The notes below the pieces were generated by a model, which saw only the letters and a program-made list of their open reading frames with translations, was not told the origin of the DNA and ran no database searches. DNA of 64,000 nucleotides from Nitrosospira multiformis (GTDB lineage: Bacteria > Pseudomonadota > Gammaproteobacteria > Burkholderiales > Nitrosomonadaceae). Each line of letters starts with the position of its first letter. The first letter of the stretch is position 1. The position numbers and the translations under genes were made by a program. Shown piece after piece: positions 39,619-62,750 of the stretch. The stretch lies in NCBI RefSeq assembly GCF_900103165.1, contig NZ_FNKY01000001.1, positions 620,001 to 684,000 on the forward strand. The letters are read 5' to 3'.

Positions 39619-39640
39619 TTCCTGGAAGCGGCAACAAGCC

Positions 39641-43276: not shown

Positions 43277-43352
43277 GCAAGCTTCCCCTGATCAGTAATC
43301 CTGGATTCGGCAGTTGGTCGCTTAATTTTCACTCATTTTGTCAAGCTCGGCG

Positions 43353-43550: not shown

Positions 43551-43596
43551 AATATAATTTGTTCCCCATCACTATTTGATAGACAGGCTTTTTTCA

Positions 43597-45183: not shown

Positions 45184-46415
45184 GTAATACCCGTCCAAAG
45201 CATGCTCCCGTGACGCAGTTTCCGATTCATGACAACTGTCTCCAGATTGGCGGCATGTCCCTTACGCGTCTGGCGCAACGGGTTGGCAGAACACCTTTCT
45301 ATGCGTATGACCGGCAGCGGATTACCGAACGGGTTGCTTTCCTGCGTCAGCATCTGCCTGCCGAGATTCACCTTCACTACGCCATGAAGGCAAATCCCAT
45401 GCCTGCAATCGTACAGCACATGGCGAGCCTGGTGGATGGGATTGACGTGGCATCGGCAGGCGAAATGAGGGTTGCGCTTGATACGCCCCTGCCGCCGCAT
45501 CTGATCAGTTTTGCCGGGCCGGGAAAGGGCGAAGGTGAGCTCTCTTGTGCGATTGCCGCGGGCATCGTCCTGAATATGGAGTCCGAGCAGGAAATGGAAC
45601 GTATTGCGAGTCTGGGCGCTCATCTCGGCATCCGTCCGAAAGTGGCGGTTCGCGTCAACCCTGATTTCGAGCTCAAGTCCTCCAGCATGAAGATGGGTGG
45701 AGGACCTAAGCAGTTCGGTGTGGATGCGGAGCGCGTCCCCGCCATGCTCACCCGGCTCGGTAAACTCGAACTTGATTTCGAAGGATTTCATATCTTCAGC
45801 GGTTCGCAAAACCTGAAAGTGGCGGCCATCCAGGAGTCTCATGAAAAAACCTTCCAGCTGGGTATTTCTCTGGCTCGGTATGCGCCCGCCCCGGTTCGTC
45901 TGCTGAACATCGGCGGCGGCTTTGGTATTCCTTATTTTCCCGGCGACGAGGCTTTGGATGTCGCAGCGGTGGGCGAGAACTTGCGGCGTCTGCTACCCGA
46001 AGTAAAACGGCAACTTCCCGAGGCACGCATTGTAATCGAACTGGGGCGATATCTGGTTGCAGAGGCCGGTATCTATGTGTGCCGTGTGCTGGAGCGAAAA
46101 GAGTCGAGAGGACAAGTATTCCTGGTGACGGATGGAGGGTTGCATCATCACCTCGCCGCCTCGGGTAATTTTGGCCAGGTAATCCGCAAAAATTACCCGG
46201 TTGTTGTCGGCAACAAGGTGCACGGTAATGAACGTGAAATTGTCTCGGTGGTGGGCCCGCTCTGCACCCCGCTGGATCTCTTGGCGGATCAGATGGAAAT
46301 GTCCAGGGCCGAGATGGGGGACCTGATGGTTGTCTTTCAATCAGGCGCCTACGGCCTGACCGCAAGCCCTACCGCATTCCTCAGCCATCCCGTACCCATT
46401 GAAGTGTTGGTCTAG
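45180..46415 (+). CDS. PLP-dependent decarboxylase, exosortase A-associated
   Basis: A 411-residue fold-type III decarboxylase related to diaminopimelate and ornithine decarboxylases (TIGR03099-like). The PLP Lys is in HYAMKANPMPAI near residue 70, the phosphate-binding Gly-rich loop is LLNIGGGFGIPYF near residue 243, and IELGRYLVAEAG and the active-site Cys in VVGPLCTPLD follow. The start overlaps the ligase stop. It probably acts in the same pathway as that ligase; lysA-type function cannot be excluded by sequence, but the context favours the exosortase A set. Confidence 0.9.
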   Translation: MSNTRPKHAPVTQFPIHDNCLQIGGMSLTRLAQRVGRTPFYAYDRQRITERVAFLRQHLPAEIHLHYAMKANPMPAIVQHMASLVDGIDVASAGEMRVALDTPLPPHLISFAGPGKGEGELSCAIAAGIVLNMESEQEMERIASLGAHLGIRPKVAVRVNPDFELKSSSMKMGGGPKQFGVDAERVPAMLTRLGKLELDFEGFHIFSGSQNLKVAAIQESHEKTFQLGISLARYAPAPVRLLNIGGGFGIPYFPGDEALDVAAVGENLRRLLPEVKRQLPEARIVIELGRYLVAEAGIYVCRVLERKESRGQVFLVTDGGLHHHLAASGNFGQVIRKNYPVVVGNKVHGNEREIVSVVGPLCTPLDLLADQMEMSRAEMGDLMVVFQSGAYGLTASPTAFLSHPVPIEVLV

Positions 46416-46556
46416 GCTGCTAAGCTGTCCGTAATAAAATGTTTGCCTATCTGGAAGATAATGCATGTTGTATGCCGTGGCCGCAAAGTGTGGCATCAAA
46501 TAATCATTAACCAAAAATAATGGAACGGTAATGCTGAGGAAAATGAGGGGATTATT

Positions 46557-48413
46557 TTGAGCGGGTTGTGTGGCTGGATAGGCTACGGCACCCACATCAA
46601 TGAGAACTTGCAGCTTGTCCAGCGAATGGCTGGACCGCTGACCCGTTTTGATGGCGGCGAGGCTCGAACATTGGCCGGGGGGAATAGCGCCCTGGCGGTT
46701 GCTGCAACCGGCGATGGCGCGCAGGTTTATCAGAAGGAAGGGCTTCTCGTGGCAATATGGGGACGAGCCGGCTTTAACGACCCCCGTCTGAACCAGCTTG
46801 CGCGTACTGATGGCATGGCAAAAATCCTGGCTGACAACTGGCGGGAAAAAGGAGAGAAAGTCTTAGAGAGTCTGACAGGGGCATTTTCCCTTTGTATCCT
46901 GCATGAAAGGGAAAATGAAGCCATTGTAGCCATAGACCGCATGGGTATTCACCCGCTTTCCTTCCAGATCTCAGGTGGATGCCTGGTGTTCGGTTCATCG
47001 GCGGATACCATCATTTTGCATCCGCAAATAAAGGCCGAAATTTCCCCGCAGGGCATCTATAACTATGTTTATTTTCACATGGTGCCCGGTCCCGGGACGA
47101 TTTATCAGGAACAAAAGCGTCTTTTGCCTGGTGAATACCTGGTCTACCGAAACGGGCGCATAGAGACTCATAAATACTGGGAAATGCGATTTCTTGAGGA
47201 TGAGAAGCGTCCCTTTCAGGAACTTAAGCAGGATTTTCTGACTGTATTGCGCTCAAGCGTGCGGGAGGCAATTGGGGACGAGGAAGCTGGAGCTTTTCTG
47301 AGCGGTGGGACCGACAGTTCGACGATCGCCGGAATATTAGGAGAAGTCAGCGGCCAGCCAGCCCGGACTTACTCCATTGGTTTCGATGCCTCGGGTTATG
47401 ACGAAATGGAGTATGCGCGTATTGCGGCGCGGCATTTCTCCACCCGGCATAAAGAATACTATGTCACTCCCGATGACATCGTGACAGCTATTCCGCAGGT
47501 TGCAGCGATTTTTGATCAGCCTTTCGGTAATTCCTCCGCCATACCCGCTTTCTATTGCGCCCGCATGGCTAAAGAAGACGGTCTGAGCCGAATACTGGGT
47601 GGCGACGGGGGAGATGAGTTATTCGGCGGCAATGTGCGCTACGCTAAACAACATCTTTTTTCCCTTTATGAACAAGTGCCTTCAGTGATGCGCAAGGGAG
47701 TGGTCGAGCCGCTGGTTTTTGGCATGCCCGGCGGAGCTGCCCTGCCTCTGGTGCGCAAGGCCCGCAGCTACATCGAGCAGGCATCAATTGCAATGCCGGC
47801 GCGCACAGAAACTTATAACCTGCTGGAGCGTTATGGTCATGGGGAAGTCTTTACCCGGGAGTTCCTGGCTACTGTCAATGCGGGCTATCCCGCTAGCCTC
47901 CTGGATGAAATCTATCATCAGAGCGATGCTAACAGCCTGATAAACCGTATGCTTGCTTTTGATCGCAAGTTCACGCTTGCCGACAATGATTTGCCTAAAG
48001 TGGCAAAAGCTTGCGAATTGGCGGGAATAGACGTGGGGTTCCCTCTTATCAGCGATGAGATTACCGCGTTCTCTGTACGACTTGAGCCCCAGCTTAAGCT
48101 TAAAGGCACGAAGTTACGTTATTTCTTCAAAGAGGCGTTGCGAGGATTTCTGCCGGAAGAAATTATCGCCAAGCAAAAACATGGTTTCGGCTTGCCCTTT
48201 GGTGTGTGGCTCCAGCATCACAAACCATTGCAGGCCCTGGCTTCCGATAGTTTGAGCGACCTCAAGTCACGAAATGTCATACGCGCCGATTTTATCGACA
48301 GGCTGCTTGGACATCATCTGGATGAGCACGCAGGTTATCACGGCACCATGGTTTGGGTCTTGATGATGCTGGAGCAGTGGTACCGGCAGCGGCAAATTCA
48401 CAAACAGTCATAG
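46557..48413 (+). CDS. Asparagine synthase-type glutamine amidotransferase
   Basis: A 618-residue protein with an N-terminal class II glutaminase domain (to about residue 200) and a C-terminal asparagine-synthase domain with the PP-loop FLSGGTDSSTIAG near residue 238. Such enzymes in exosortase A clusters amidate a polysaccharide precursor or protein-linked sugar. Class II glutaminases need Cys as residue 1 after Met removal. The longest frame starts TTG at 46557 (M-S-G-L-C-G-W), but the TTG at 46566 places Cys next to the start (M-C-G-W) and may be right; otherwise a short propeptide must be cut. Confidence 0.88.
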   Translation: MSGLCGWIGYGTHINENLQLVQRMAGPLTRFDGGEARTLAGGNSALAVAATGDGAQVYQKEGLLVAIWGRAGFNDPRLNQLARTDGMAKILADNWREKGEKVLESLTGAFSLCILHERENEAIVAIDRMGIHPLSFQISGGCLVFGSSADTIILHPQIKAEISPQGIYNYVYFHMVPGPGTIYQEQKRLLPGEYLVYRNGRIETHKYWEMRFLEDEKRPFQELKQDFLTVLRSSVREAIGDEEAGAFLSGGTDSSTIAGILGEVSGQPARTYSIGFDASGYDEMEYARIAARHFSTRHKEYYVTPDDIVTAIPQVAAIFDQPFGNSSAIPAFYCARMAKEDGLSRILGGDGGDELFGGNVRYAKQHLFSLYEQVPSVMRKGVVEPLVFGMPGGAALPLVRKARSYIEQASIAMPARTETYNLLERYGHGEVFTREFLATVNAGYPASLLDEIYHQSDANSLINRMLAFDRKFTLADNDLPKVAKACELAGIDVGFPLISDEITAFSVRLEPQLKLKGTKLRYFFKEALRGFLPEEIIAKQKHGFGLPFGVWLQHHKPLQALASDSLSDLKSRNVIRADFIDRLLGHHLDEHAGYHGTMVWVLMMLEQWYRQRQIHKQS

Positions 48414-48865: not shown

Positions 48866-49570
48866 GTGACTGAGGTTGCTCTGATACTCGTTTGCAAGCG
48901 ACCGGCATCAGGCATCGCGAAGCAACGGCTCGCCGCAAGCTTGGGGAGGGAGGCAGCGACGCGAATCGCCGAAGCACTCCTCGCCTGTGCGCTGGAGGAT
49001 GCGGGCGATTGGGCCGGTCCGGTGGTTATTGCCCCGGCGCATCCTTCGGATCATGCCTGGGCGGATACGCTTTTGCCGCGGTCGCGACAGAGCGTGCGCA
49101 TACAGCCGCAAGCGGCGGGTAACCTGGGACAACGGCTGAACATTCTGGATCGCGAATTGCGCGGTATGGGACTCGAACAACTGGTTTATATCGGCAGTGA
49201 TGCGCCCGCGCTTATGGCGTCCGATTATGCCGCAGTCAACGAAGCCTTGCCTTTCCATGACAGCGTGCTGATACCAGCGGACGACGGTGGCGTGGTGCTG
49301 ATGGCAAGCCGCCATGAGTGGCCGATGCTGGGTGGTTTGCCGTGGAGCACTGCCCGCCTGGGTACAGCACTGGCAGACTGTTGCCGTGCGGCGGGGCAGT
49401 CCGTTGCTATCCTTGGGTGTAGTTTCGATGTAGACGAACACGACGATCTTGTTCGATTGGCGGTGGCGCTGAGGACGGATCAACGTCCGGCACGGCGTAT
49501 ATTGCACGCGTTGGCTTGTGATTTCGTCCAACAAGGCCAACAGAGGGAAGCGGACCATGTCGAGTTTTAG
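48866..49570 (+). CDS. TIGR04282/DUF2064-type glycosyltransferase
   Basis: A 234-residue nucleotidyl/glycosyltransferase-A fold protein. The start LILVCKRPASGIAKQRLAASLG, YIGSDAPAL near residue 110 and ADDGGVVLMA near residue 138 are typical of DUF2064 (TIGR04282), a family named for its place in arsenosugar clusters. GTG start at 48866. It overlaps the next gene by 14 bases, whose product belongs to the partner family TIGR04283. The pair probably adds and loads a sugar in the pathway, by family context. Confidence 0.87.
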   Translation: MTEVALILVCKRPASGIAKQRLAASLGREAATRIAEALLACALEDAGDWAGPVVIAPAHPSDHAWADTLLPRSRQSVRIQPQAAGNLGQRLNILDRELRGMGLEQLVYIGSDAPALMASDYAAVNEALPFHDSVLIPADDGGVVLMASRHEWPMLGGLPWSTARLGTALADCCRAAGQSVAILGCSFDVDEHDDLVRLAVALRTDQRPARRILHALACDFVQQGQQREADHVEF

Positions 49571-50243
49571 TGCGATCATCCCCTGCTACCACGACGAGGC
49601 GAAACTGGGCGATCTGCTCAACCAGCTGCGGAGCCTGCCACATCGGCCGCTGGAAACCGTGGTGGTGGATGGCGCCGGCAACAAGGCATGCCGCAAAGTG
49701 TGCGATCAATATGGCGCACGCTGGCTGGCTGGCGAACCCTGCCGGGGGCGGCAACTACTGGCGGGAGCGGCGCTGGCCCAAGGTGACGCACTATGGTTTT
49801 TGCACGCTGACAACCGCTTGCCACCCGATCCGGTGATGGCAATGGACCTCGCTATCAAGCGTGGCGCAGTGGGAGGTTATTTTCGATTTCGATTCGATTC
49901 TCCTCGCGCCTGGCCAGCATTCCTGCTGGAACCGGCTATCGCATTCCGTTGCCGGTTTGGTGTTCCTTATGGGGACCAAGGGCTATTCATGACACGTCAG
50001 GCCTATGCCGATGCTGGCGGCCATTCGCCCTGGCCCTTGTTCGAAGAGGTATCCCTGGTGCGCGGGTTGCGTCGCCTGGGGGGCTTTTTACCCTTGCGTG
50101 AGCCGCTCTTTGTCGATCCGCGCCGCTGGCATCGCGATGGCTGGTGGCGTCGTACCTGGGTAAATCGCAATCTGGCGCTGGCCTTTGCGTGCGGCGCCGC
50201 ACCTGATCAACTTGCAGCTCGCTACCGCTCTACAACGACCTGA
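49557..50243 (+). CDS. TIGR04283-type glycosyltransferase (GT2 family)
   Basis: A 228-residue GT-A glycosyltransferase. It begins FSAIIPCYHDE, with ETVVVDGAGN near residue 40 in the DxD-type region, LWFLHADNRLPP near residue 80 and GVPYGDQGLFMTRQ near residue 138, as in TIGR04283 enzymes next to arsenosugar genes. The upstream-open frame begins at 49518, but the ATG at 49557 has a GAGGGAAG ribosome-binding site. The next gene is arsM-like, 22 bases away. Confidence 0.88.
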   Translation: MSSFSAIIPCYHDEAKLGDLLNQLRSLPHRPLETVVVDGAGNKACRKVCDQYGARWLAGEPCRGRQLLAGAALAQGDALWFLHADNRLPPDPVMAMDLAIKRGAVGGYFRFRFDSPRAWPAFLLEPAIAFRCRFGVPYGDQGLFMTRQAYADAGGHSPWPLFEEVSLVRGLRRLGGFLPLREPLFVDPRRWHRDGWWRRTWVNRNLALAFACGAAPDQLAARYRSTTT

Positions 50244-50265
50244 TTTCCATCACGAGGCGATTACC

Positions 50266-51321
50266 ATGCATGACATTGTCCAACGATATTACGGCGAAAC
50301 CCTGACCAGTTCGCATGATCTCCAGACCGGCACCTGCAAGCCCGACGCGGGCTTGCCCGATTATGTGAAGCCGATACTGGCGCAGGTGCACAATGAGGTG
50401 CTGACGCGCTACTACGGCTGCGGTTTGGTGCTCCCCGAATTGCTGGAAGGTCTGACCGTACTCGATCTGGGTTGCGGCGCGGGCCGTGATGTCTACATGA
50501 TATCCAAACTGGTGGGGGAGCGTGGCAAGGTAATTGGCGTGGATATGACTGAAGAGCAGCTGACAGTCGCACGCCGGCATGAGGAATATCATCGCAAGGC
50601 GTTTGGTCATGCCGCCGGTAATGTGCTTTTTCTGCATGGCTATATCGAGCGCCTGTGCGAGCTCGAGCTGGCGGATAGCAGTGTGGACGTCATCGTGTCC
50701 AATTGCGTGATCAACCTTGCGCCCGACAAGGCGGCGGTGTTACGCGAAGCCTGGCGTGTCCTCAAGCCAGGTGGTGAACTGTATTTTTCCGATATTTATA
50801 CCGACCGTCGCGTACCCGAGGGGCTTACCCGCGACCCGGTACTCTACGGCGAATGCTTGAGTGGAGCGCTCTACTGGAATGACTTTAACCAGCTTTCCCG
50901 TGAGCAGGGCTTTGCCGATCCGCGCCTGGTGGATGATCGTAAAATTACCATTGGCAAAGCGGAACTGGCGGCGCGCACCGGGAACATCCGCTTCTATTCC
51001 GCCACCTACCGGTTATTCAAGCTGGACAACCTTGAGCCGGCCTGCGAAGACTATGGCCAGTCGGTGGTTTATCGCGGCACGATACCGCATCATCCCCACT
51101 TGTTTATATTGGACAAGCACCACCGTATAGAAACCGGAAAGCATTTCCCGGTCTGTGGCAACACCTGGCACATGCTGCACGATACCCGGTTTGCTGAACA
51201 TTTTGAGTTCTACGGTAACTTTGAGCGGCACTATGGCATTTTCGCCGGCTGCGGTATGGGACTGCCCTATAACGATACCGTAAACGATGCCGAAAATAAT
51301 CGTACGGGCGGATGTTGCTAG
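50266..51321 (+). CDS. arsM: ArsM-type arsenite S-adenosylmethionine methyltransferase
   Basis: A 351-residue class I methyltransferase. The SAM motif LDLGCGAGRD is at residues 66-75. Four Cys match known ArsM ligands: C24, C52 (in YYGCG), C147 (SNCVIN) and C197 (GECLSG). Their spacing (28, 95, 50) follows the C44/C72/C174/C224 set of algal ArsM, with the last 50-residue step identical. A GGCC end adds two more Cys. It should methylate As(III), probably giving di- or trimethyl arsenic. The frame opens at 50185, but the ATG at 50266 has a GAGGCGA site and suits the family. Confidence 0.9.
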   Translation: MHDIVQRYYGETLTSSHDLQTGTCKPDAGLPDYVKPILAQVHNEVLTRYYGCGLVLPELLEGLTVLDLGCGAGRDVYMISKLVGERGKVIGVDMTEEQLTVARRHEEYHRKAFGHAAGNVLFLHGYIERLCELELADSSVDVIVSNCVINLAPDKAAVLREAWRVLKPGGELYFSDIYTDRRVPEGLTRDPVLYGECLSGALYWNDFNQLSREQGFADPRLVDDRKITIGKAELAARTGNIRFYSATYRLFKLDNLEPACEDYGQSVVYRGTIPHHPHLFILDKHHRIETGKHFPVCGNTWHMLHDTRFAEHFEFYGNFERHYGIFAGCGMGLPYNDTVNDAENNRTGGCC

Positions 51322-51330
51322 CCGTAAACC

Positions 51331-52278
51331 ATGAAAGTCATTCCCACCAGCGCCGCACAGCCCGGCCGGTCTGAATACTGGCAGCGTACACCAGGCGATG
51401 AACCGCGCGGTTTCATCCAGCCGTATGCGCTGGAGGAATTGTGGTTTCACACGGGTACCGCCTGTAACCTCGCCTGCCCTTTCTGTCTTGAAGGCTCAAG
51501 ACCGGGAGATGATCGCTTGCAGCTGTTGCGGCTTGACGACGCCATCCCGTTTGTGGACGAGGCGTTCGATCTTGGTGTCAAGCAATTTTCCTTCACCGGG
51601 GGCGAACCTTTCATCAATAAGGACATAATAGGTATTCTCGATTACGCATTGATGCATCGGCCTTGCCTGGTGCTGACCAACGCAACCGAACCGTTACTCA
51701 AGCGTCTGCAACAATTGGAATCATTACGTGAGCGGCCGCATGCGCTGAGCTTCCGCATTAGCCTGGATTATCCTGACGCCGCAAGGCATGACGCGGGGCG
51801 CGGCAAGGGAATGTTTGCAAGCGCGCTGGAGGGCTTACGAAAACTTCATGACATGGGGTTCCGGGTATCGGTGGCGAACCAGCTCTTGTCTGGCATTACG
51901 CCAGATGTGGCTACGGCGCGTTTTGCCGGCATTTTTCGCGCTGCCGGTTTACCCGAGGATCTGCCGCGTATCGAATTCCCCGAATTTCACCCGCCTGGCG
52001 CGCGCGTGACCCCTCCAGAAATTACTGAACACTGTATGACGGCCTTCCAGACCGAGGAGACACGGCGCTCATTCATGTGTGCATTCAGCAAGATGGTGGC
52101 AAAGAGTGGCGGCCGGATGCGGGTTTATGCATGCACCCTGGTTGATGACGATCCGGATTACATCCTCGGTGAAACGTTGACGGAAGCTCTGCAAATACCT
52201 GTGAGCATGAAGCACCATCGCTGCCATAGCTGTTTCAAATATGGCGCCACCTGTAGCGAAATGAAAACGGGAAAATGA
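51331..52278 (+). CDS. Radical SAM protein of the arsenic cluster
   Basis: A 315-residue enzyme with a radical SAM 4Fe-4S site CNLACPFC at residues 45-52 (CX3CX2C), FSFTGGEPFIN near residue 86 and a C-terminal Cys-rich region (FMCAF, YACTL, HRCHSCFKYGATC) that could hold a second Fe-S cluster. It does not show the start or C-terminal domain I associate with ArsS, nor the RCCLKC-type motif of ArsL. As the next gene after arsM it may use methylated arsenic as substrate, for instance to add a 5'-deoxyadenosyl group; that is inference. Confidence 0.8.
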   Translation: MKVIPTSAAQPGRSEYWQRTPGDEPRGFIQPYALEELWFHTGTACNLACPFCLEGSRPGDDRLQLLRLDDAIPFVDEAFDLGVKQFSFTGGEPFINKDIIGILDYALMHRPCLVLTNATEPLLKRLQQLESLRERPHALSFRISLDYPDAARHDAGRGKGMFASALEGLRKLHDMGFRVSVANQLLSGITPDVATARFAGIFRAAGLPEDLPRIEFPEFHPPGARVTPPEITEHCMTAFQTEETRRSFMCAFSKMVAKSGGRMRVYACTLVDDDPDYILGETLTEALQIPVSMKHHRCHSCFKYGATCSEMKTGK

Positions 52279-52317
52279 ATTGCTGTCCGCGAATTTTGAT
52301 TTTTAGAGACGCCCAAG

Positions 52318-54456
52318 ATGAAACATTGGTGGCTACTCATCGTGCTGGTGCTATTGGCTGGATTGTTCTTTGCCTTTGATCTCCAACGGTTTCTCAGTCT
52401 CGAAATGCTCAAGAGCAGCCGGGACGAACTGCAACAAGCCTTTCAGGTGCGGCCATTTCAGGTTATTGGCCTCTATGCCGCAGTTTATATTGTCATAACC
52501 TCGCTTTCCCTGCCCGGTGCAACGTTGATGACGTTGGCCGGCGGTGCTGTCTTCGGGCCGTGGGTGGGGATTCCAGCGGCAGTCATCTCCGCCAGTATCG
52601 GTGCAACCGTGGCTTTCTGGACGGCGCGTTATCTTTTTCGCGACGCTGTACATCAGCGCTTCGGCGGCCATATGGCTGCAATCAATGCCGGCATTGAGCG
52701 TGACGGCGCATTTTATCTTTTCACCTTGCGTCTGGTACCGGTATTTCCTTTTTTCGTGATCAATCTCCTGATGGGGCTGACCGTCATCCGGAGCGGTACG
52801 TTCTTCTGGGTCAGCCTATTAGGGATGCTTGCCGGCACCGCGGTTTATGCTAACGCCGGGACCCAGTTGGGCACACTCACAAGTTTGTCCGGCATTTTGT
52901 CGCCATCGCTAATCGGATCGTTTATTCTGCTGGCTGCCTTCCCGTGGCTGGCACGGCTGGGGCTGGAGCGTGTCAAGGAGAGCAGAGTGCGCGGACATTG
53001 GTCCAGGTCGTCCAGGCCAAGCCGATTCGACCGCAATCTGGTGGTTATCGGGGCCGGTGCGGCGGGCTTGGTAACCTCATACATAGCAGCCAGCACGCGC
53101 GCCAAGGTGACATTGATCGAAGGCTACAAGATGGGGGGCGACTGTCTCAATTTCGGGTGTGTACCTTCCAAGTCACTGATTCGTTCGGCCAGCTTTCTGC
53201 GACAGGCTCGGCACGCCAAAGACCTTGGCATCGCCAGTGTAACCGTCGACTACAATTTCGGCGACGTGATGGCGCGCGTGCATCGAATCATCAGCACGGT
53301 TGAGCCGCATGATTCAGTGGAGCGCTATACGGAACTGGGAGTGGAAGTCATTCATGGCAATGCGCGCATTACTTCGCCCTGGACGGTGGAGGTCAATGGA
53401 CAGACCATAACCACTTGCGCTATCGTTATCGCCACCGGCGCCTCTCCCGCTATCCCTTCGATTCCGGGGTTGGAGCAGGTGCGCTATTATACGTCCGACA
53501 CCATCTGGTCACTTACTGAACGCCCGGAGCGGCTCGTCGTGCTAGGAGGAGGACCGGTTGGCTGCGAGTTGGCGCAGGCGTTTGCACGCCTTGACTGTCA
53601 GGTCACGCAAGTGGTGAGAACGGGTTTGATGGAGCGTGAAGATGCGGATGCCGTTGCGCTGATTGAAGCGGCGTTGTGCGCCGATGGCGTGCGTGTACTG
53701 ACTCAAACCGAGGCTATTCGTTGTGAACGCGACTCCGGTCAGCAATGCTTGATGGTGCGTTACCAGGATGGAACCGAAGAAATGCTTCCGTTTGATGCCA
53801 TGCTGTGCGCAGTGGGAAGAACTGCCCGGACCGAGGGTTTTGGACTGGAGGAATTGGGAATTCCAATTTCACCCAAGCGTACCATTGAAACGGATGCGTG
53901 GCTGCAGACGCTTTATCCCAACATCTACGCTTGCGGCGATGTGGTGGGGCCATACCAGTTCACCCATGTTGCGGCGCACCAGGGCTGGCATGCATCGGTG
54001 AATGCGCTGTTTGGCGCCGTGAAACGCTTTAAGGTGGATTACTCAGTGATTCCCCGGACCACATTTACCAGCCCGGAAGTTGCCCGGGTCGGGTTATCGG
54101 AGGATGAAGCGAAGAAGCAGGGTATTTCCTATGAGGTGACACGCTATGGGCTGGAGGACCTCGACCGCGCTATTGCCGATGAAGCGGCACATGGCTTTGT
54201 CAAGGTGCTCAGCGTGCCGGGTAAAGATCACATTTTAGGTGTGACCATTGTTGGCGAGCACGCCAGTGACCTGCTGGTGGAATTCGTGCTGGCGATGAAA
54301 CATGGTCTCGGCCTCAACAAAATACTCGGCACGATCCATACTTATCCAACTTGGTCGGAGGCCAACAAATACGCCGCAGGCGAATGGAGGCGTGCACATA
54401 TGCCACATCGCCTGCTTGATTGGGCGGAAAAATATCACACTTGGCGGCGAGGTTAG
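52318..54456 (+). CDS. Fusion of TVP38/TMEM64 membrane domain with a disulfide oxidoreductase
   Basis: A 712-residue two-domain protein. Residues 1-225 are a TVP38/DedA-related membrane domain (about five helices; VYIVITSLSLPGATLMTLAGG and LRLVPVFPFFVINLLMGLT). After a basic linker, residues 240-712 are an FAD/NAD(P) disulfide oxidoreductase: VVIGAGAAGLV near 242, redox pair CLNFGC (C276/C281), NAD-binding LVVLGGGPVGCELAQAF near 404, and a C-terminal dimerisation domain with HTYPTWSE, the Lpd/MerA His-Glu pair. No N-terminal HMA domain or C-terminal Cys pair of MerA. The partner thiol is unknown; reduction of an arsenic-thiol compound is possible. Confidence 0.88.
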   Translation: MKHWWLLIVLVLLAGLFFAFDLQRFLSLEMLKSSRDELQQAFQVRPFQVIGLYAAVYIVITSLSLPGATLMTLAGGAVFGPWVGIPAAVISASIGATVAFWTARYLFRDAVHQRFGGHMAAINAGIERDGAFYLFTLRLVPVFPFFVINLLMGLTVIRSGTFFWVSLLGMLAGTAVYANAGTQLGTLTSLSGILSPSLIGSFILLAAFPWLARLGLERVKESRVRGHWSRSSRPSRFDRNLVVIGAGAAGLVTSYIAASTRAKVTLIEGYKMGGDCLNFGCVPSKSLIRSASFLRQARHAKDLGIASVTVDYNFGDVMARVHRIISTVEPHDSVERYTELGVEVIHGNARITSPWTVEVNGQTITTCAIVIATGASPAIPSIPGLEQVRYYTSDTIWSLTERPERLVVLGGGPVGCELAQAFARLDCQVTQVVRTGLMEREDADAVALIEAALCADGVRVLTQTEAIRCERDSGQQCLMVRYQDGTEEMLPFDAMLCAVGRTARTEGFGLEELGIPISPKRTIETDAWLQTLYPNIYACGDVVGPYQFTHVAAHQGWHASVNALFGAVKRFKVDYSVIPRTTFTSPEVARVGLSEDEAKKQGISYEVTRYGLEDLDRAIADEAAHGFVKVLSVPGKDHILGVTIVGEHASDLLVEFVLAMKHGLGLNKILGTIHTYPTWSEANKYAAGEWRRAHMPHRLLDWAEKYHTWRRG

Positions 54457-54468
54457 CAGGAGGGGGGC

Positions 54469-55302
54469 ATGAAAATATTGTCAACAACGCAGTATGTGAT
54501 GTTAGCGGCGGCGTTACTGCTGGGATCTGGCTGGAGCCTGTCCAGTAATGCCGCTTCACAAAAACTGGTTTTAACCGGTGCCAGCACGATTGCCCCGTTA
54601 GCGGGAGAGATCGCCCGGCGCTTCGAGTCACTGCATCCCGGCCTGCGAGTGGATGTGCAGACCGGTGGTTCCGCGCGTGGCATTAGCGATGCCCGCAACG
54701 GAATTGCCAGCATTGGCATGGTATCCCGGACTTTGAAACCGGAAGAGAATGATCTTCATGCGCATACGATTGCGTGGGATGGCGTCGGAATCATCCTGCA
54801 CGCGAACAACCCGGTCACCGCGCTAAGCCGGCAGCAGCTTATCGATATTTATACCGGAAAGATCACCACATGGAAGACTGTAGGTGGGCGAGATGCGCCC
54901 ATCACCGTGGTCAACAAAGCCGAAGGACGCTCAACACTTGAATTGTTTTTGAGTTATTTGAAATTAAGGAACAGTGATATCAAGCCGCAAGTGATCATCG
55001 GCGACAACGCACAGGGGATAAAGACCGTGGCAGGCAATCCGAATGCCATCAGCTACGTTTCAATAGGTGCGGCCGAATATGAAATAACACGCGGCACGGC
55101 AATCAAGCTATTGCCGCTTGACGGCATTGCGGCTACGGTGGCTAATGTGCGTAAGGGTACTTTCCCCCTGTCGCGGCCGCTTAATCTGGTAACGCGGGAA
55201 GTGCCGAGAGGATTGATTCTGGATTTTATAGAATTCGCCCGCTCGGAGTCGGTATATGGTCTGGTCGAAGCACAATATTTCGTCCCCGTCAGCATCCGCT
55301 GA
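54469..55302 (+). CDS. pstS: PstS-like phosphate (or arsenate) binding protein
   Basis: A 277-residue periplasmic binding protein with signal peptide (cleavage near NAASQ). VLTGASTIAPLAGEIARRF and VDVQTGGSARGISDARNG are the anion-binding loops of PstS-type proteins, with Thr/Ser and Arg/Gly ligands. It lies 12 bases after the fusion gene behind a GGAGGGGGG ribosome-binding site. The following genes complete an importer. There is no Pho box in front of it. Confidence 0.88.
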   Translation: MKILSTTQYVMLAAALLLGSGWSLSSNAASQKLVLTGASTIAPLAGEIARRFESLHPGLRVDVQTGGSARGISDARNGIASIGMVSRTLKPEENDLHAHTIAWDGVGIILHANNPVTALSRQQLIDIYTGKITTWKTVGGRDAPITVVNKAEGRSTLELFLSYLKLRNSDIKPQVIIGDNAQGIKTVAGNPNAISYVSIGAAEYEITRGTAIKLLPLDGIAATVANVRKGTFPLSRPLNLVTREVPRGLILDFIEFARSESVYGLVEAQYFVPVSIR

Positions 55303-56149
55303 CACAGTGCGGGTGGATAAGTTGATACTCTGGCTTCTGCGCGGTGGAGCAGGCATTGCGGCGGCTCTGGTACTGCTGATTTTCTTATTCCTGGCGGTCG
55401 AGTCCTGGCCTGCGCTACGGCATATATCGGCTGGGCGCTTTCTCACCGATCCCTCATGGAACCCCGGGGAAAGCATGTACAACCTGGCGCCAATGCTGTC
55501 GGGTACGCTCTACACCGCAGGCGGGGCGCTGCTGGTGGCAACGCCGTTGGGTATCGCTTCGGCGCTGTTTATCGCCTATTACGCACCGCCCCGCACTGCC
55601 GGCATTTACCGGCGATTGATCGAGCTGTTGGCAGGCATTCCTTCTGTAGTCTATGGGTTTTGGGGTCTGATCACGCTCGTGCCGCTGATTAATCAATTAC
55701 ATCCGCCGGGGGCCAGTCTGCTGGCCGGAATCCTGGTACTTACACTGATGATCCTGCCCACCATCGCGTTAACCGCGCATGCGGCGCTATTGGGTGTTCC
55801 CGGAGAATATCTGCGCGGTGCGGCGGCACTGGGCTTATCACGCTGGGGCATGCTTCGCGGTGTCGTCCTGCCGGCGGCAAAACCGGGGATCGTGGCCGGC
55901 ATCATGCTTGCTACCGGCCGCGCCATCGGTGAAACCATGGCCGTGCTGATGGTTACCGGCAATGTAGTGCGGCATGCAGATAGCCTGTTTGATCCGGTGC
56001 GCACGCTTGCCGCCAATATTGCGCTGGAAATGGCCTATGCGATGAATGACCATCGCGCTGCCCTGTTTGTATCAGGTCTGACGCTGATGCTGATGGTTAT
56101 GATGCTCTCAGGCGTAGCGGGTTGGCCGGCGAGAAATCGTCATGTCTGA
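55256..56149 (+). CDS. pstC: Phosphate ABC transporter permease
   Basis: A 297-residue inner-membrane permease with about six helices and the EAA-loop region AAALGLSRWGMLRGVVLPAAKPG. Homologous to PstC. The ATG at 55256 has a GGAG site 8 bases ahead and overlaps pstS by 47 bases; a GTG at 55307 just after the pstS stop is an alternative start and would give a normal short N-terminus. It overlaps pstA by 8 bases. Confidence 0.9.
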   Translation: MVWSKHNISSPSASADTVRVDKLILWLLRGGAGIAAALVLLIFLFLAVESWPALRHISAGRFLTDPSWNPGESMYNLAPMLSGTLYTAGGALLVATPLGIASALFIAYYAPPRTAGIYRRLIELLAGIPSVVYGFWGLITLVPLINQLHPPGASLLAGILVLTLMILPTIALTAHAALLGVPGEYLRGAAALGLSRWGMLRGVVLPAAKPGIVAGIMLATGRAIGETMAVLMVTGNVVRHADSLFDPVRTLAANIALEMAYAMNDHRAALFVSGLTLMLMVMMLSGVAGWPARNRHV

Positions 56150-57011
56150 AGCAATTTCTGTGAAATTGGCGCATATTCATCGGGATCGCTTCGCGCAGCT
56201 GGCCATCTGCCTCGCTGCATTCCTGGTCTGTGCGGCGTTTGTATGGATAGCCGGTGATCTTGTGCGCGGCGGCCTGGGGCATCTTTCCTGGGATTTCATC
56301 GTTGATTCGCCGCGGGATGCCGGCCGTGCCGGCGGCATCGGCCCGATCCTGGTTTCCACCATTCTTATCTTGCTGGTTGCCCTCATGGTGGCGCTACCGC
56401 TGGGATGGGCGACGGCCGCGCTGCTCGCCGAATATGTATCCGCCAGTGGTGGTTTCGGCTCCGCGGTACGCTACAGTCTGCAGGTGCTTGCCGGTGTGCC
56501 TTCCATCGTTTTTGGCCTGTTCGGCAATGCCTTCTTCAGCATTTATCTGGGCATGGGATTTTCCATCCTGTCCGGCGGCCTGACCTTGGCGTGCATGCTG
56601 TTGCCCATTCTCGTCAGTACCGCCGAGGCGGGTTTACGCGCCGTCCCCGACGCGTACCGTCTGTCCGCCGCTGCATTGGGCATGTCGCGCGCAACAACGC
56701 TGTTCCGGTTGTTATTGCCGGCCGCCGTACCGGCACTGGCCGCAGGCCTGCTGTTGGGGATCGGACGCGCCGTTGCCGAAACCGCGGCGCTATTGTTCAC
56801 CAGCGGCTATGTCGGCCGTATGCCGGGTTCGTTGTTGGATTCCGGGCGTTCCCTGGCGATACATATCTTCGATTTATCCATGAACGTATCGGGAGGCGAT
56901 ACGGCCGCGCACGCGTCGGTATTGGTGCTGATCACGCTGCTACTATTCATCAATATGGCTGCCATGCGGCTCACCGCCAGTTGGCAGCGTAGAAAGATAG
57001 TGCCAGAATGA
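56142..57011 (+). CDS. pstA: Phosphate ABC transporter permease
   Basis: A 289-residue permease with about six helices. GGIGPILVSTILILLVALMV, VLAGVPSIVFGLFGNAFF and the loop AAALGMSRATTLFRLLLPAAV are typical of PstA. The start overlaps pstC (ATGTCTGA) and the stop overlaps the pstB ATG, so the four genes are one translationally linked unit. Confidence 0.92.
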   Translation: MSEAISVKLAHIHRDRFAQLAICLAAFLVCAAFVWIAGDLVRGGLGHLSWDFIVDSPRDAGRAGGIGPILVSTILILLVALMVALPLGWATAALLAEYVSASGGFGSAVRYSLQVLAGVPSIVFGLFGNAFFSIYLGMGFSILSGGLTLACMLLPILVSTAEAGLRAVPDAYRLSAAALGMSRATTLFRLLLPAAVPALAAGLLLGIGRAVAETAALLFTSGYVGRMPGSLLDSGRSLAIHIFDLSMNVSGGDTAAHASVLVLITLLLFINMAAMRLTASWQRRKIVPE

Positions 57012-57889
57012 ACTCAACAGGCACTCCAATTCCCATGCACGCAGACGCTGAGCAATCCATAGGCAGGGGCAACAATACCTATACGCTCGGACCAATGCAG
57101 GCGGGTCCGGCTTGTTGCGACCCGCAACCCTTGATCCAGGTCGACAATTTTTCCCTTCATTATGGTACCAAGCCCGCGCTGGCCAACGTTACACTGAATA
57201 TTTACCGTGGCTGCATTACTGCCTTGATCGGCCCTTCCGGCTGCGGGAAAACCAGTTTCCTCTCGTCGATCAACCGGCTTACGGATTTGATTCCAGGCTG
57301 CCGGATTGCCGGTCGTATTCGCATTGACGGTACTGATATTCATGATCCCGCCCGCAATGTGCAGGCGTTGCGGCGGCAGATCGGCATGGTGTTTCAGAAG
57401 CCAACACCGTTTCCTCTCTCGATTCATCGTAACATCGAGCTGCCCCTGCATGAGCATGGCATTACGCGGCGTGCCGAAACAGAGGCCATTATTGAACAGG
57501 CATTACAGGATGTCGGGCTGTGGGACGAAGTGCATGACCGGTTGGGCGCTTCCGCGCTGAGCCTGTCCGGCGGTCAGCAGCAGCGCCTTTGCATTGCTCG
57601 CGCACTGGCATTGAATCCACAGATTCTTCTAATGGATGAGCCATGCAGCGCGCTCGATCCCATCGCTTCGGGAGTGGTCGAAGATCTGATCAGCCGATTG
57701 CGCGGCCGCTACACCATCGTCATTGTCACTCATAATCTGGCGCAAGCGCGCCGCATCGCTAACTATGCGGCATTTTTTTGGGTCAAGGAGCATGCCGGGC
57801 GCCTGGTCGAATTTGGTCATTGCCGGCAGATTTTTGAATCGCCTGCCCACGAGCTTACCGCCGCTTACGTAAATGGAGCGAGAGGGTGA
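57008..57889 (+). CDS. pstB: Phosphate ABC transporter ATPase
   Basis: A 293-residue ABC ATPase of the PstB family. Walker A GPSGCGKTSFLSSINRL near residue 76, Q-loop VFQKPTPFPLSI, signature LSGGQQQRLCIARAL, Walker B ILLMDEP and the His-switch VIVTHNL are intact; the RLTDLIPGCRIAG and PTPFPLSI blocks point to PstB rather than another importer. An unusual N-terminal extension of about 40 residues contains a CC pair. No phoU follows; the next region is noncoding. Confidence 0.93.
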   Translation: MNSTGTPIPMHADAEQSIGRGNNTYTLGPMQAGPACCDPQPLIQVDNFSLHYGTKPALANVTLNIYRGCITALIGPSGCGKTSFLSSINRLTDLIPGCRIAGRIRIDGTDIHDPARNVQALRRQIGMVFQKPTPFPLSIHRNIELPLHEHGITRRAETEAIIEQALQDVGLWDEVHDRLGASALSLSGGQQQRLCIARALALNPQILLMDEPCSALDPIASGVVEDLISRLRGRYTIVIVTHNLAQARRIANYAAFFWVKEHAGRLVEFGHCRQIFESPAHELTAAYVNGARG

Positions 57890-58227: not shown

Positions 58228-58254
58228 GGTAAATAAACATTTATGGAGGGAAAC

Positions 58255-59355
58255 ATGAACAAAGTTGTTCAAGGGGCAGTCGGGTTCGGATTGCTGTGTA
58301 TGAGTGCGGGTGCCGCCATGGCGGCGACGGACATTTCCAAGTTGCCGGTGGTCACCCAGGAATTGGTGGCGCCGCCTTTTTTGCCCAAGCATGACCAGGT
58401 GGCCAAAGGGGGTCCCAAGGTCGTCAAGGTGCGCATGGAGACCATAGAGAAACTGGTGCAGGTTGCACCGGATGGCACCAAGATGTGGGCACTGACTTTC
58501 AACGGCACCGTTCCGGGTCCGCTGATCGTCGTGCATGAGGGCGACTATGTCGAGCTGACACTGGTCAACCCCAAGACCAGCACCATGGCGCACAATGTTG
58601 ACTTTCATGCGTCCACCGGTGCGCTGGGTAGCGCCGGCCTGACGCTGGTGGCACCGGGCGAAGATGTGGTCGTGCGCTGGAAGGCGACCAAGGCAGGCGT
58701 ATTTGTCTACCATTGCGCCCCGGGCGGAACCATGATCCCGTTCCACGTCATTTCGGGCATGAACGGCGCCATCATGGTATTGCCGCGCGATGGCCTGAAG
58801 GACAACAAAGGCAAATCGGTGCGCTATGACCGTGCCTACTACATAGGCGAACAGGATCTGTACCTGCCTAAGGACAAGGACGGAAAGTACAAAGTGTATT
58901 CCCAGCCTGCCGAAGGCATGGCTGAGATGCTCGAAGTTGGCAAAGGGCTGATTCCGACCCATGTCGTCTTCAATGGCGCGGTCGGTGCGCTGACGGGCGA
59001 CAATGCGCTCAAGGCCAAAGTCGGAGAGAAGGTACTGTTCATTCACTCGCAAGCCAATCGTGATTCCCGCCCGCACTTGATCGGCGGCCATGGCGATCTG
59101 GTATGGCAGGGTGGCAAGTTCAGCGATCCTCCCATGACCAATCAGGAAACCTGGTTCGTCCCAGGGGGCGGTACCGGAGTGGCCTTGTATGAATTCAAGC
59201 AACCCGGCCTCTATGTCTACCTCAGCCATAACCTGCTGGAAGCCGTATTGCTGGGTGCCGCAGCACACATGAATGTCGAGGGCAAATGGGACGACGATCT
59301 CATGATCCAGCTCAAGAAACCGAATGAGAATTCAACCCCGGCGATGGATCACTAA
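58255..59355 (+). CDS. nirK: Copper-containing nitrite reductase
   Basis: A 366-residue periplasmic enzyme reducing nitrite to nitric oxide, with signal peptide ending near AMA/ATD. Two cupredoxin domains. Type 1 copper ligands H113, C154, H164 and M169; type 2 ligands H118, H153 and the His of LSHNLLEA; catalytic Asp D116 (HNVDFH) and His in RPHLIGGHG. The frame opens at 58243, but the ATG at 58255 follows a GGAGGG site. In ammonia oxidisers NirK supports nitrite tolerance and NO handling. It stands alone with a strong terminator after it and lies just upstream of haoA. Confidence 0.95.
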
Positions 59356-59381
59356 CAAGAATCCATTAACAGCCTTTCCGG

Positions 59382-59416
59382 CGCGGCTTCAACGTTACGT
59401 TGAAGCCGCGTTTTTT
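59382..59416 (+). terminator. Rho-independent terminator after nirK
   Basis: A 14-bp stem CGCGGCTTCAACGT with its complement, one-base centre, followed by TTTTTT. It lies 27 bases after the nirK stop and separates nirK from the hao cluster. Confidence 0.9.
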
Positions 59417-59506
59417 ATGGGTGAATGCTTCTCGGAATATTTCATAGGATCGTTTGATGGTTTCTGAACGATTCCGCAAAAATGATGCCCAAGGCGCGCA
59501 ATTTTC

Positions 59507-59535
59507 TTGACACAGTGCTGCTGCCGCGTTAGGCT
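59507..59535 (+). promoter_or_regulatory. Possible haoA promoter
   Basis: TTGACA at 59507-59512 and TAGGCT at 59530-59535 with a 17-base spacer fit a sigma-70 promoter, 141 bases before the haoA ATG. The ~140-base leader has two further TAGGC/CTAGGCGG copies (59531 and 59624). The 320-base gap from nirK holds nothing else beyond the terminator. Confidence 0.4.
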
Positions 59536-59675
59536 AGGCGGTGTTCGTCAAGGTAATTCTGTGCTGCTTTCGGGTTATACAGAATTAAATATTAGGGTAG
59601 GCTATTTAGCGTGACGCAATAGTCTAGGCGGACCAGGCATCAAAAAAACAATTAATACGGATAAGGAGAAGAGAG

Positions 59676-61385
59676 ATGGTTGTCAAGCTTGGGCTGAGGC
59701 TCATAACGCTGACATGCGGGGCGCTGCTGGCGGCGTCTTCATGGGCGAACTTTCCCAGCGTCCCGAAGGAGATGTACAAAGCGCTGAACCTGGAACAAAC
59801 GGCCACGCCCAAGGAACTGCATGAAGCGGTGACCAAGCGCTACAAGGACCCGGCACAAGGGGCGGGACGTGGGACGTTGGCGCAGTACTGGGAACCGGTA
59901 CCGTACAGCATGTACATGGACCCGGCCTCATTCTACAAGCCACCGACCTCGATGAAGGAAGTGGCGGAGCGCCAGGAATGCGTCAAGTGTCACACGGACG
60001 AATCGCCGGTGTGGGTGAATGCGTGGAAGAAGAGCACGCATGCCAACCTGGACAAAGTGCGCAACCTCAAGCCGGACAGCCCGATCTACTACAAGAAAGC
60101 CAAGCTGGAAGACGTGGAGAAGAACCTGCGCTCCATGGGACGGCTGGGCGCGACCGAGAAGCTGAAGGAAGTGGGCTGTATTGACTGTCACGTCGACATC
60201 AACACCAAGAAAAAAGCCGACCACATGACTGAGCTGCGCATGCCCACGGCTGACGTCTGCGGCACCTGCCACCTGCAGGAATTTGCCGAACGCGAATCCG
60301 AGCGCGACACCATGATCTGGCCGAACAAGCAATGGCCGTCGGGACGGCCCTCGCACGCGCTGGACTGGAAAGCCAACGTAGAAGTTGCGGTATTTGCCGC
60401 CATGCCGCAGCGCGAGATCGCTGAAGGCTGCAGCATGTGCCACACCAACCAGAACAAATGCGACTCCTGCCACACCCGTCACGAATTCTCCGCGGCCGAA
60501 TCGCGCAAGCCCGAAGCGTGCGCCACCTGCCACAGCGGGGTTGACCACAACAACTGGGAAGCTTACTCCATGAGTAAGCACGGCAAGATCGTCACCATGA
60601 TGGGCGACAAATGGAACTGGGAAGTCTCACTCAAGGACGCCTACTCCAAGGGCGGCCAGACCGCCCCGACCTGCGCGGGCTGCCACTTCGAATATGAAGG
60701 CAAATACAGCCACAACGTCACCCGCAAGATACGCTGGGCCAACTACCCTGCCGTACCTGGCATCGCCGAGAACATCAACAGCGAATGGTCGGAAGCGCGC
60801 CTGGACTCCTGGGTCAAGACCTGCACCTCCTGCCACTCCGAGCGTTTTGCCCGCTCCTACCTGGAATTCATGGACAAAGGCACCCTGCACGGCCTGGCCA
60901 AATTCAAGGAAGCGCACAACGTCGCCGAGCAACTCTACAAGGATGGCCTGCTCACCGGGCAGAAGACCAACCGTCCGGCGCCGATGGCACCGGATAAGGA
61001 AATGTTCGCCGGCTTCACCCAGCTCTACTGGTCCAAGGACAACAACCCCGCGGCGATCGAACTGAAAGCGCTGGAAATGGGAGAAAACGACCTGCCCAAA
61101 CTGCACGTCGGCCTGGCCCACGTCAACCCGGGCGGCTGGACCTACACCGAAGGCTGGGGACCGATGAACCGCGCCTACGTCGAAATCATGGACGAAAACA
61201 CCAAGATACGCGAAATGGCGGCACTGCAGGCACGGGTAGCCAAAATGGAATCGAAACGCACCAGCCTGCTGGATCTTGACAGCAAGGACGACAAGCTCTC
61301 GCTGGGCGGTCTGGGCGGCGGCATGCTGCTGGCCGGCACCCTCGCGCTGGCTGGCTGGCGCCGGCGCGAGAAAAGCGGGCATTGA
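59676..61385 (+). CDS. haoA: Hydroxylamine oxidoreductase
   Basis: The key enzyme oxidising hydroxylamine in ammonia oxidation, a periplasmic octahaem protein that forms a trimer. The 569-residue precursor has a signal peptide (first 24 residues), eight CxxCH sites (C102, C168, C195, C252, C262, C282, C333, C383) and the Tyr that crosslinks the P460 haem in [10 protein letters not shown] (Y490). The C-terminal [18 protein letters not shown] segment (about 544-561) could be a membrane anchor. The ATG has an AAGGAGAAG site. haoB overlaps its stop by four bases. Confidence 0.97.
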
Positions 61386-62578
61386 CCGCCTCCTCCGCCA
61401 CAACCCCCTCCCCCGCAGCACGGGGAGGGCTGGGAACTAAACTCCTCCCGTCACTGGGCATCCTCCTGGTGACGGGAGGTTTACTTTTACTCATCTGGTT
61501 TGCCTGGCTCTGGTTCAACCCGGCGCCCGCACCCTACCGCTACACCCTGGTCAAGGAAGGAGCTAGCACCCAATTTGGCCCGCTGGGCCTCGATGCCTGG
61601 CCGGACCTCACCGTCGCCCAATATGAAATCCACGCCGACGGCGTGAACGATCCCATCGCCCTGGCCACCACCGCCCGGCGCGGTGCGACCCCGCCCATCC
61701 TCATCAGCTGGGAGAACCGCAGCAGCGAACTGCTCATCTCCCTCGACAGCAAACTCAATGAACTGACCGCGCTGGCTGCCGCCATCGACAAGTATGCGGC
61801 CAAGGACGCGCGCATCCTGGCGTGGTGGGACACCTCGCGCCAGATCAAACTGCTGGCCGGGCGCGACACCCTGTTTACCCGGCACCTGGGCGAACCCCTC
61901 ATCCTCCCCTTGCCCTGGCAGGCCTACAGCGACGCCGTCCGTCACTACGAAGACCAATTCTGGGGCGCCCCGGCCTCGGCTGACGAACAGCGTAACTTCC
62001 AGCACTTCGTCGACGCCCTCATCGCCGAGCCCGTCAAGGGCGCCGCCCTCCTGCGCCAACTGGCCGGCCTGCAGGACAGCGCGGGCAAGACCCCGGACCA
62101 GGCCCCCTCGGAAGCCTACATCGTCATCCACGTCACCGACCTCTATAAACTGGGACTGATGCGCCCCGAGCAATTCGACATCACCTACAAGCACTTCCCC
62201 ATGGAAGGCAACATGCACGGCATGATCGGCTACCTCAAGAAATGGATGCAGGAAAACAACTTCGCCACCTACACCCTGCAATCCCTCTCCGACAGCATGG
62301 TGCGCGGCTACTTCCTGCGCGACGAAAAAAGCAGCCACAGCCTCCTGGCGCAGATGCTGCCCTTCACCAACTCCATGCCGCTGGACCTGACCGTCCTGCA
62401 ACTCATCTACCAGCAGGGCGGCTACTGGGTCTACAAAATCCCCTCCGCCGCGGACGCCGCGGCGGCACCCTCCACTCCCGCCCCCGCTGACGCCGCCGGC
62501 GCCCACACCGCTCCCCACTCTGACACCGCCCCCGCCCCGGCCGCTCCCGCCCCGGCCGCTCCCGCCCCCGCCTCCTGA
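61382..62578 (+). CDS. haoB: HaoB, conserved membrane protein of the hao cluster
   Basis: A 398-residue protein with one N-terminal membrane helix (about residues 21-46) and a periplasmic domain. It follows haoA in all known AOB clusters; function unknown. No CxxCH motif. The last ~45 residues are a low-complexity Ala/Pro tail (repeats of [11 protein letters not shown]). TTG start at 61382 overlaps the haoA stop. Probably assists assembly or anchoring of the oxidoreductase at the membrane; that is inference. Confidence 0.9.
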
Positions 62579-62614
62579 GGCGGGCCAGGCTGGTTGACCG
62601 AGGGCGCACGCGCG

Positions 62615-62658
62615 GCGGTACCAGTGGTACCACAAAGAGTGATGGTACTGGTGCTACC
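62615..62658. other. GGTACC-rich hairpin between haoB and cycA
   Basis: GCGGTACCAGTGGTACCAC is imperfectly complementary to GTGATGGTACTGGTGCTACC further on, and the left arm is itself a small palindrome. It lies 37 bases after haoB in the 172-base gap before cycA and could slow transcription or protect an mRNA end, giving cycA its own level. No T-run follows. Confidence 0.35.
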
Positions 62659-62750
62659 CGTTTAGCGCAACCAGCGATACAGTACCGGCATAATTGGGTT
62701 TTATACATATAACAACGATCAACGGATATATTTGCCCGAAGGAGAAGACC

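Follow-up and report, generated by a model that had tools for sequence, protein, structure and literature searches.

A nine-gene operon of Nitrosospira multiformis with an unnamed radical SAM family in the position of ArsS: a candidate arsenosugar-type biosynthesis cluster

RESULTS

Nine closely spaced genes join transferases, ArsM and a radical SAM protein to a Pst importer

The window, a 64,000-nucleotide stretch of the Nitrosospira multiformis contig NZ_FNKY01000001.1, holds nine genes at 48866–57889, all on the + strand and separated by intergenic gaps of −47 to +39 bases (Table 1). They encode two predicted transferases (GT1, TIGR04282-like, and GT2, of TIGR04283), an arsenite methyltransferase-like protein (ArsM), a radical S-adenosylmethionine (SAM) protein of an unnamed family (hereafter rSAM), a TVP38-disulfide reductase fusion and a PstSCAB importer. 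An earlier note on this DNA had listed the same nine genes, which were all found where it placed them, and had proposed that they serve organoarsenical synthesis, with another radical SAM enzyme filling the slot of the arsenosugar enzyme ArsS. With a probability of roughly two in three, we read the operon from sequence comparison as an arsenosugar-type biosynthesis cluster in which the unnamed radical SAM family replaces ArsS. Using likely starts, the gaps are −14 bases for GT1/GT2, 22 for GT2/arsM, 9 for arsM/rSAM, 39 for rSAM/TVP38-reductase, 12 for reductase/pstS, −47 for pstS/pstC (first possible start), −8 for pstC/pstA and −4 for pstA/pstB, and the distance from pstB to nirK is 353 bases.

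Table 1. Genes of the operon, with positions in the window
Gene	Position	Strand	Description	Profile matches
GT1	48866..49570	+	TIGR04282-like (DUF2064, CofC-like) putative glycosyl/nucleotidyl transferase; GTG start	
GT2	49557..50243	+	TIGR04283 family glycosyltransferase; likely ATG 49557	
arsM	50266..51321	+	arsenite methyltransferase-like; likely ATG 50266	
rSAM	51331..52278	+	radical SAM protein, unnamed family, ArsS position	
TVP38-reductase	52318..54456	+	TVP38/VTT membrane domain fused to flavin adenine dinucleotide (FAD) disulfide reductase, redox CxxxxC	PF09335, PF07992/PF02852
pstS	54469..55302	+	phosphate/arsenate-type binding protein	TIGR02136 165.6 bits, below cutoff 206.6
pstC	55256..56149	+	permease	TIGR02138 254 bits, above cutoff 196
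pstA	56142..57011	+	permease	TIGR00974 221 bits, above cutoff 193
pstB	57008..57889	+	ATPase	TIGR00972 331.8 bits, below cutoff 343.2

GT2 scored 187 bits against TIGR04283 (cutoff 182). For GT1, TIGR04282 was the best match at 109.7 bits, below the NCBI cutoff of 134, with 55.7 bits to Pfam PF09837. All four pst genes were present as described, PstC and PstA above their cutoffs and PstS and PstB below. The fusion of a VTT domain (PF09335) to a Pyr_redox_2 domain was borne out, and its redox motif is kept in 81 of 82 homologous open reading frames (ORFs) longer than 600 amino acids. The best model for ArsM was NF008823 (183 bits, below the cutoff of 263). ArsM carries cysteines 51, 79, 174 and 224 (numbering of the 378-amino-acid ORF at 50185) and a C-terminal CC. 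The four cysteines, expected of ArsM in an arsenosugar-type cluster and already claimed for this protein, are found together with the CC tail in 84/84 aligned homologues of at least 320 amino acids. By motif, three of them probably correspond to Cys72, Cys174 and Cys224 of CmArsM. Those CmArsM residues are tied to arsenite binding in a review (PMC12608789). Nitrosospira briensis and Nitrosomonas eutropha are already represented in a 2017 tree of such methyltransferases (PMC5398495).

The radical SAM protein is distinct from ArsS

rSAM scored 67 bits against Pfam Radical_SAM, and in the 25 matches listed, out of 34, no NCBIfam model exceeded its cutoff. The Rv1681 radical SAM family (NF049973) gave 106.2 bits over residues 36–188 only (cutoff 380), HpnH matched weakly at 43.1 bits (cutoff 225), and the ArsS model TIGR04167 gave 38.8 bits (cutoff 300). 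On this last score we rejected the candidate that rSAM is an ordinary ArsS. No ArsS above cutoff was found anywhere in the genome, in agreement with the earlier statement that ArsS is absent and another radical SAM gene stands in its place; nor did rSAM fall, among those matches, into a known family with an unrelated substrate, an outcome that the earlier note had named as counting against its proposal. Across a 41-member rSAM alignment, all 41 sequences matched the Rv1681 model (best 2.3e-33) and 35 matched TIGR04167 at E up to 1e-10 (best 8e-16). The AlphaFold2 model of rSAM (predicted local distance difference test, pLDDT, 86.7) has SkfB, BlsE and MoaA as its nearest solved folds, at 18–22% identity; these are general radical SAM relatives only, as were the results of a sequence search of solved structures. 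No description of the family was found in the titles, abstracts and passages of open-licence papers that were searched.

The protein carries a CxxxCxxC motif (C45, C49, C52) and conserved C235, C250, C268, C298, C301 and C308. The motif is present in 41/41 aligned members, as are C250, C268, C298 and C301, and C308 is present in 40/40. The spacing of the C-terminal cysteines resembles that of C250, C265, C302, C305 and C313 of ArsS (52/52 ArsS sequences), so that rSAM has CxxxCxxC and conserved C-terminal cysteines as ArsS does, a combination that is not specific. A global profile alignment pairs the C-terminal cysteines of the two enzymes roughly, but we do not take this as proof that rSAM and ArsS are kin: aligned alone, the C-terminal parts give a probability of 7%, and the layout is also seen in two more distant homologues, L006 and L181. 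L181/L243 and L006 belong to a sister radical SAM group with 33–39% identity to rSAM; the L006 stretch is only 3.1 kb long.

The radical SAM gene recurs with GT1, GT2 and arsM

rSAM was found (E up to 1e-20) in 68/125 Nitrosomonadaceae genomes. Outside the family its occurrence is scattered: it was found in 4/200 genomes of the order sample, three of them Nitrosomonadaceae and one the 33–36% homologue L006, and in 8/369 of the class sample, two of them Nitrosomonadaceae and one the 39% homologue L181, near which there are no labelled arsenic genes. ArsS is much commoner overall (114/299 phylum-sample genomes at E 1e-60). From a tblastn scan of genome contigs (E up to 1e-3) we examined the best 80 of 321 accepted stretches, whose rSAM relatives are 57–89% identical to the window protein and whose hosts include Nitrosomonas, Nitrosospira, Methylotenera bins, Motiliproteus, Marinobacterium, Alcanivorax and others. 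The recurrence of the cluster in family genomes and in these 80 loci led us to reject an orphan cluster of one genome.

Within 8 kb of rSAM, the 80 loci hold arsM in 70, GT1 in 69, GT2 in 74, the TVP38-reductase gene in 53 and each pst gene in 16–18. Gene order was counted from labelled genes on the rSAM strand, several loci being cut by contig ends: arsM lies directly upstream of rSAM in 66/80 loci, the order GT1-GT2-arsM-rSAM is present in 57/80, and all nine genes stand in order in 10/80. The order is thus not unique to this genome and recurs in others, two points on which the earlier note had staked its proposal. A hand-picked set of 30 loci, drawn largely from other lineages (25 belong to the 80 and five to the class sample; L115 and L136, titled beta proteobacteria, were left out, and L136 has pst genes), has arsM in 21, GT1 in 23, GT2 in 25, the reductase gene in 12 and no pst gene at all. 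By these counts, GT1-GT2-arsM-rSAM is the core, the reductase is a frequent member and the importer has been added mainly in nitrifiers.

Individual loci vary around this core. In L156, rSAM has no partner nearby, and ArsM is encoded elsewhere in the genome. The Motiliproteus bin L173 has the order GT1-arsM-rSAM-ArsC-MTAP-GT2, in which the ArsC-type protein scores 140.8 bits against arsenate reductase TIGR02691, short of its cutoff (174.3), and the 5′-methylthioadenosine (MTA) phosphorylase-type protein scores 276 bits against TIGR01694 (above the cutoff of 274.85). Genes of this phosphorylase type, whose products are 45–71% identical by BLAST to the L173 protein, adjoin rSAM in L161 and L239 and ArsS in L229 and L230; in L173 itself the phosphorylase-type gene lies one gene away from rSAM. 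DUF547- and DUF3047-type genes are likewise found near both rSAM and ArsS. An ORF of 95–99 amino acids with a CxxC motif, presumably Rdx/SelT-like, follows GT2 in L164, L169 and L171. In three Nitrosomonadaceae loci (L082, L083, L085) there is a second TIGR04283-type match in an open frame of ~665 codons, away from arsenic genes.

ArsS and the radical SAM family have been exchanged within related gene sets

ArsS scored above cutoff in 8/125 Nitrosomonadaceae genomes. rSAM alone is present in 67, ArsS alone in 7, both in one (G212) and neither in 50; independence would give ~4.4 genomes with both, and P = 0.017 for one or fewer, a guide only, as the genomes are related. Near ArsS in the eight genomes, we found the TVP38-reductase gene in 8, GT1, GT2 and arsM in 7 each and pstS in 3. 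Five of the ArsM proteins from these loci are 58–62% identical to that of the window and two are 33% identical; the reductases are 38–60% identical. PstS of some ArsS clusters is 63–66% identical to the window protein. One such locus (L074) has the order ArsS, reductase, DUF547, GT2, GT1, two more genes, ArsM and pstSCAB. Outside Nitrosomonadaceae, L229 carries the full set with ArsS and pstSCAB, plus DUF3047- and MTA-phosphorylase-type genes, and L234 carries ArsS and the reductase with window-type GT1 (55%) and GT2 (51%) and no arsM in the stretch. The link is looser in 14 ArsS loci of other groups (GT1 7, GT2 6, arsM 4, reductase 7).

Quick trees, which gave long-branch warnings, were made from a hand-picked set of 39 rSAM and 18 ArsS loci; rows without the gene were dropped, leaving 43 for ArsM, 49 for GT2 and 36 for the reductase, window included. 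The fewest changes of partner label were 2 for ArsM, 2 for GT2 and 3 for the reductase, whereas shuffled labels needed 10 to 12 on average. In the ArsM tree, seven ArsS-linked sequences make up a clade (99) within a group that also contains rSAM-linked ArsM (86). In the GT2 tree, the ArsS-linked copy of L234 sits inside an rSAM-linked clade and the remaining twelve group together in a separate one, and ArsS-linked reductases are placed among rSAM-linked reductases. In the GT2 and reductase trees, but not in the ArsM tree, starred branches require the partner to have changed more than once; the long branches make caution advisable. The positions of the labels in the three trees indicate that the partner enzyme changed within related gene sets: the gene set is conserved, and two radical SAM enzymes have been exchanged in it.

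The importer is an additional copy, and nitrification genes lie downstream

Elsewhere in the genome, two more genes score above the PstC cutoff, which makes the cluster pst an extra copy. The whole importer that the earlier note described as joined on is present, but its occurrence in 16–18 of the 80 loci and in none of the hand-picked 30 marks it as an add-on and not part of the core. No Acr3 exporter was found in the genome at E 1e-5 (ArsB was not searched), and an ArsC homologue encoded elsewhere is weak (48.6 bits).

Downstream of the operon lie genes for copper nitrite reductase (nirK), an HAO-like multihaem cytochrome, HaoB and cytochrome c-550 CycA, a neighbourhood from which the genome is most likely that of an ammonia oxidiser. 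At 58243–63458, nirK stands directly upstream of hao-haoB-cycA, and L054 and L070 share the nirK-hao order. Upstream, at 38173–48413, is an exosortase A (XrtA)/PEP-CTERM gene group with an EpsB-type transferase, a PrsK kinase, a PEP-CTERM response regulator, an acyl-CoA ligase, a pyridoxal phosphate (PLP) decarboxylase and an amidotransferase-like gene; the last two precede the arsenic operon in 10/13 same-genus loci compared. A Pho box was tried as a regulator and rejected: the window has 9 matches with up to three mismatches against 4.1 expected, 4/100 shuffles had as many, and none falls between 48414 and 48865. Promoter-like and terminator-like sites did not exceed their frequency in shuffles, and no RNA element reached its Rfam gathering score.

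DISCUSSION

A proposed route to a sugar-like arsenic compound

Our results suggest that rSAM is probably a second, non-orthologous enzyme that forms carbon–arsenic (C–As) bonds, through an ArsS-like adenosylation of methylated arsenite, and that the nine-gene set probably serves to import arsenate and to make a sugar-like compound of arsenic. PstSCAB would import arsenate along with phosphate, a reductase encoded elsewhere would convert it to arsenite, and ArsM, judging by its family and cysteines, would methylate the arsenite. rSAM would then attach a SAM-derived group, most likely 5′-deoxyadenosyl, to methylated arsenite, as its exchange with ArsS suggests. ArsS is described as adenosylating arsenic (PMC12159101), and an adenine-removing phosphorylase would therefore be a natural next step; in some relatives, the product of a phosphorylase gene close to rSAM may perform it. 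The TIGR04282- and TIGR04283-type transferases would complete the sugar product, and the membrane disulfide reductase might, more speculatively, keep arsenicals and thiols reduced. The organoarsenical pathway proposed in the earlier note thus gains ground, while remaining a matter of probability, from the ArsS sets of sister genomes, the conserved arsM and the ArsC-type gene; nothing found points to the arsenolipid that it had also considered.

Observations against the proposal, and what else could explain them

A number of observations weigh against this reading. rSAM is no close relative of ArsS. Only the radical SAM core shows significant similarity, with an hhalign probability of 98 for the N-terminal part and of 7% for the C-terminal part alone. 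L006 and L181 (33–39% rSAM homologues) have the same cysteine layout with no arsenic genes in the stretch seen, so that the layout is no marker of arsenic chemistry. The window cluster has neither arsC nor a phosphorylase gene, ArsM is near ArsS in only 4/14 ArsS loci of other groups, and those 50 of the 125 family genomes do without either enzyme. GT1 and GT2 from family ArsS loci, where directly compared, are only 27–32% identical to those of the window, GT2 of rSAM and ArsS clusters fall mostly into separate clades, and the presence of both enzymes in G212 implies that rSAM and ArsS may not be equivalent. The retention of both enzymes there and the separate GT2 clades, like the unnamed family and its weak similarity to ArsS, would suit an rSAM that makes a third type of C–As bond or modifies an existing arsenical, with a product outside arsenosugars and arsinothricin. 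We consider this unlikely, since exchange within otherwise related gene sets favours the same step.

The MTA-phosphorylase would also fit ArsL-like chemistry, which releases MTA. An ArsL-like rSAM would cut SAM in the opposite way and add a 3-amino-3-carboxypropyl group to As(III), with methylation by ArsM, to give an arsinothricin-like amino acid, perhaps glycosylated; MTA would be the by-product, matching the phosphorylase-type genes near some rSAM genes, and arsQML likewise has ArsM and a radical SAM gene as neighbours (PMC8552651). Yet that report gives ArsL three conserved cysteines only, several fewer than the rSAM family has, it is with ArsS clusters that the gene set is shared, where the phosphorylase also adjoins ArsS, and the 25 matches listed, out of 34, include no ArsL model, although the library searched may have none. 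Chemistry of this kind therefore seems to us quite unlikely.

ArsM itself is not universal. Of 12 rSAM genomes checked, seven have ArsM at E 1e-20. Five marine genomes (L161, L163, L164, L169 and L171, from Motiliproteus, Marinobacterium and an Oceanospirillaceae bin) yield no match to the window ArsM at that threshold, reach only 61–81 bits against NF008823 (cutoff 263) and keep GT1-rSAM-GT2. These genomes may use methylated arsenic from sea water; rSAM may also need no ArsM, or the pathway there may not be about arsenic. Genomes with rSAM, GT1 and GT2 and no ArsM are what one would expect if rSAM and the two transferases made a phosphate- or other sugar-linked metabolite with ArsM as an occasional neighbour; pst genes would suit phosphate too, and the arsenosugar names of TIGR04282 and TIGR04283 come from NCBI annotation. 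Against such a non-arsenic cluster, which we hold to be very unlikely, stand arsM near rSAM in 70 of the 80 loci with its four cysteines intact, the ArsC-type gene in one operon (L173) and the replacement of rSAM by ArsS.

Beyond an arsenosugar-type cluster with rSAM in place of ArsS, it is possible, and we suggest it tentatively, that a second family, whose kinship with ArsS ends at the radical SAM core, forms C–As bonds, has been swapped with ArsS more than once, makes a new arsenical in ammonia oxidisers and marine Gammaproteobacteria and uses scavenged methylated arsenic where ArsM is absent. There is a real chance that the product is new. A 2025 review names two bacterial radical SAM reactions that form C–As bonds, those of arsenosugar and of arsinothricin synthesis (PMC12159101). 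A third C–As radical SAM family, if true, would extend organoarsenical synthesis to nitrifying bacteria and would permit a direct comparison of two enzymes of different descent at the same step; surveys counting ArsS alone would overlook rSAM-bearing genomes.

Comparison with known systems

The operon has most in common with the ArsM-ArsS arsenosugar pathway (Synechocystis type; ArsS = TIGR04167), with which it and its relatives share ArsM, the TIGR04282- and TIGR04283-type transferases, the TVP38-reductase, sometimes pst, the DUF547-, DUF3047- and MTA-phosphorylase-type genes and the C-terminal cysteines of the radical SAM enzyme. It differs in that the radical SAM enzyme of the window is of another family and GT2 mostly of other subclades. 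With the arsQML arsinothricin cluster it shares an ArsM gene adjoining that of a radical SAM enzyme, whereas the nine genes, by their family assignments, include no ArsQ-like (GntP-type) transporter and, among the matches listed for rSAM, no ArsL, transferases and a membrane reductase are present, and conserved cysteines are more numerous than reported for ArsL. Arsenite-oxidation islands carry extra pst1 operons (PMC3834237). They resemble the window in having an extra pstSCAB joined to arsenic genes, with other pst copies elsewhere in the genome, and differ from it in that its nine genes lack aio and the neighbours are biosynthesis genes. The adenosyl-hopene transferase HpnH acts on another substrate in another gene context, and the similarity of rSAM to it is far below the HpnH cutoff. 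HpnH adenosylation is followed by a phosphorylase step, and this sequence of radical SAM adenosylation and then adenine removal is the chemistry that we propose for the window.

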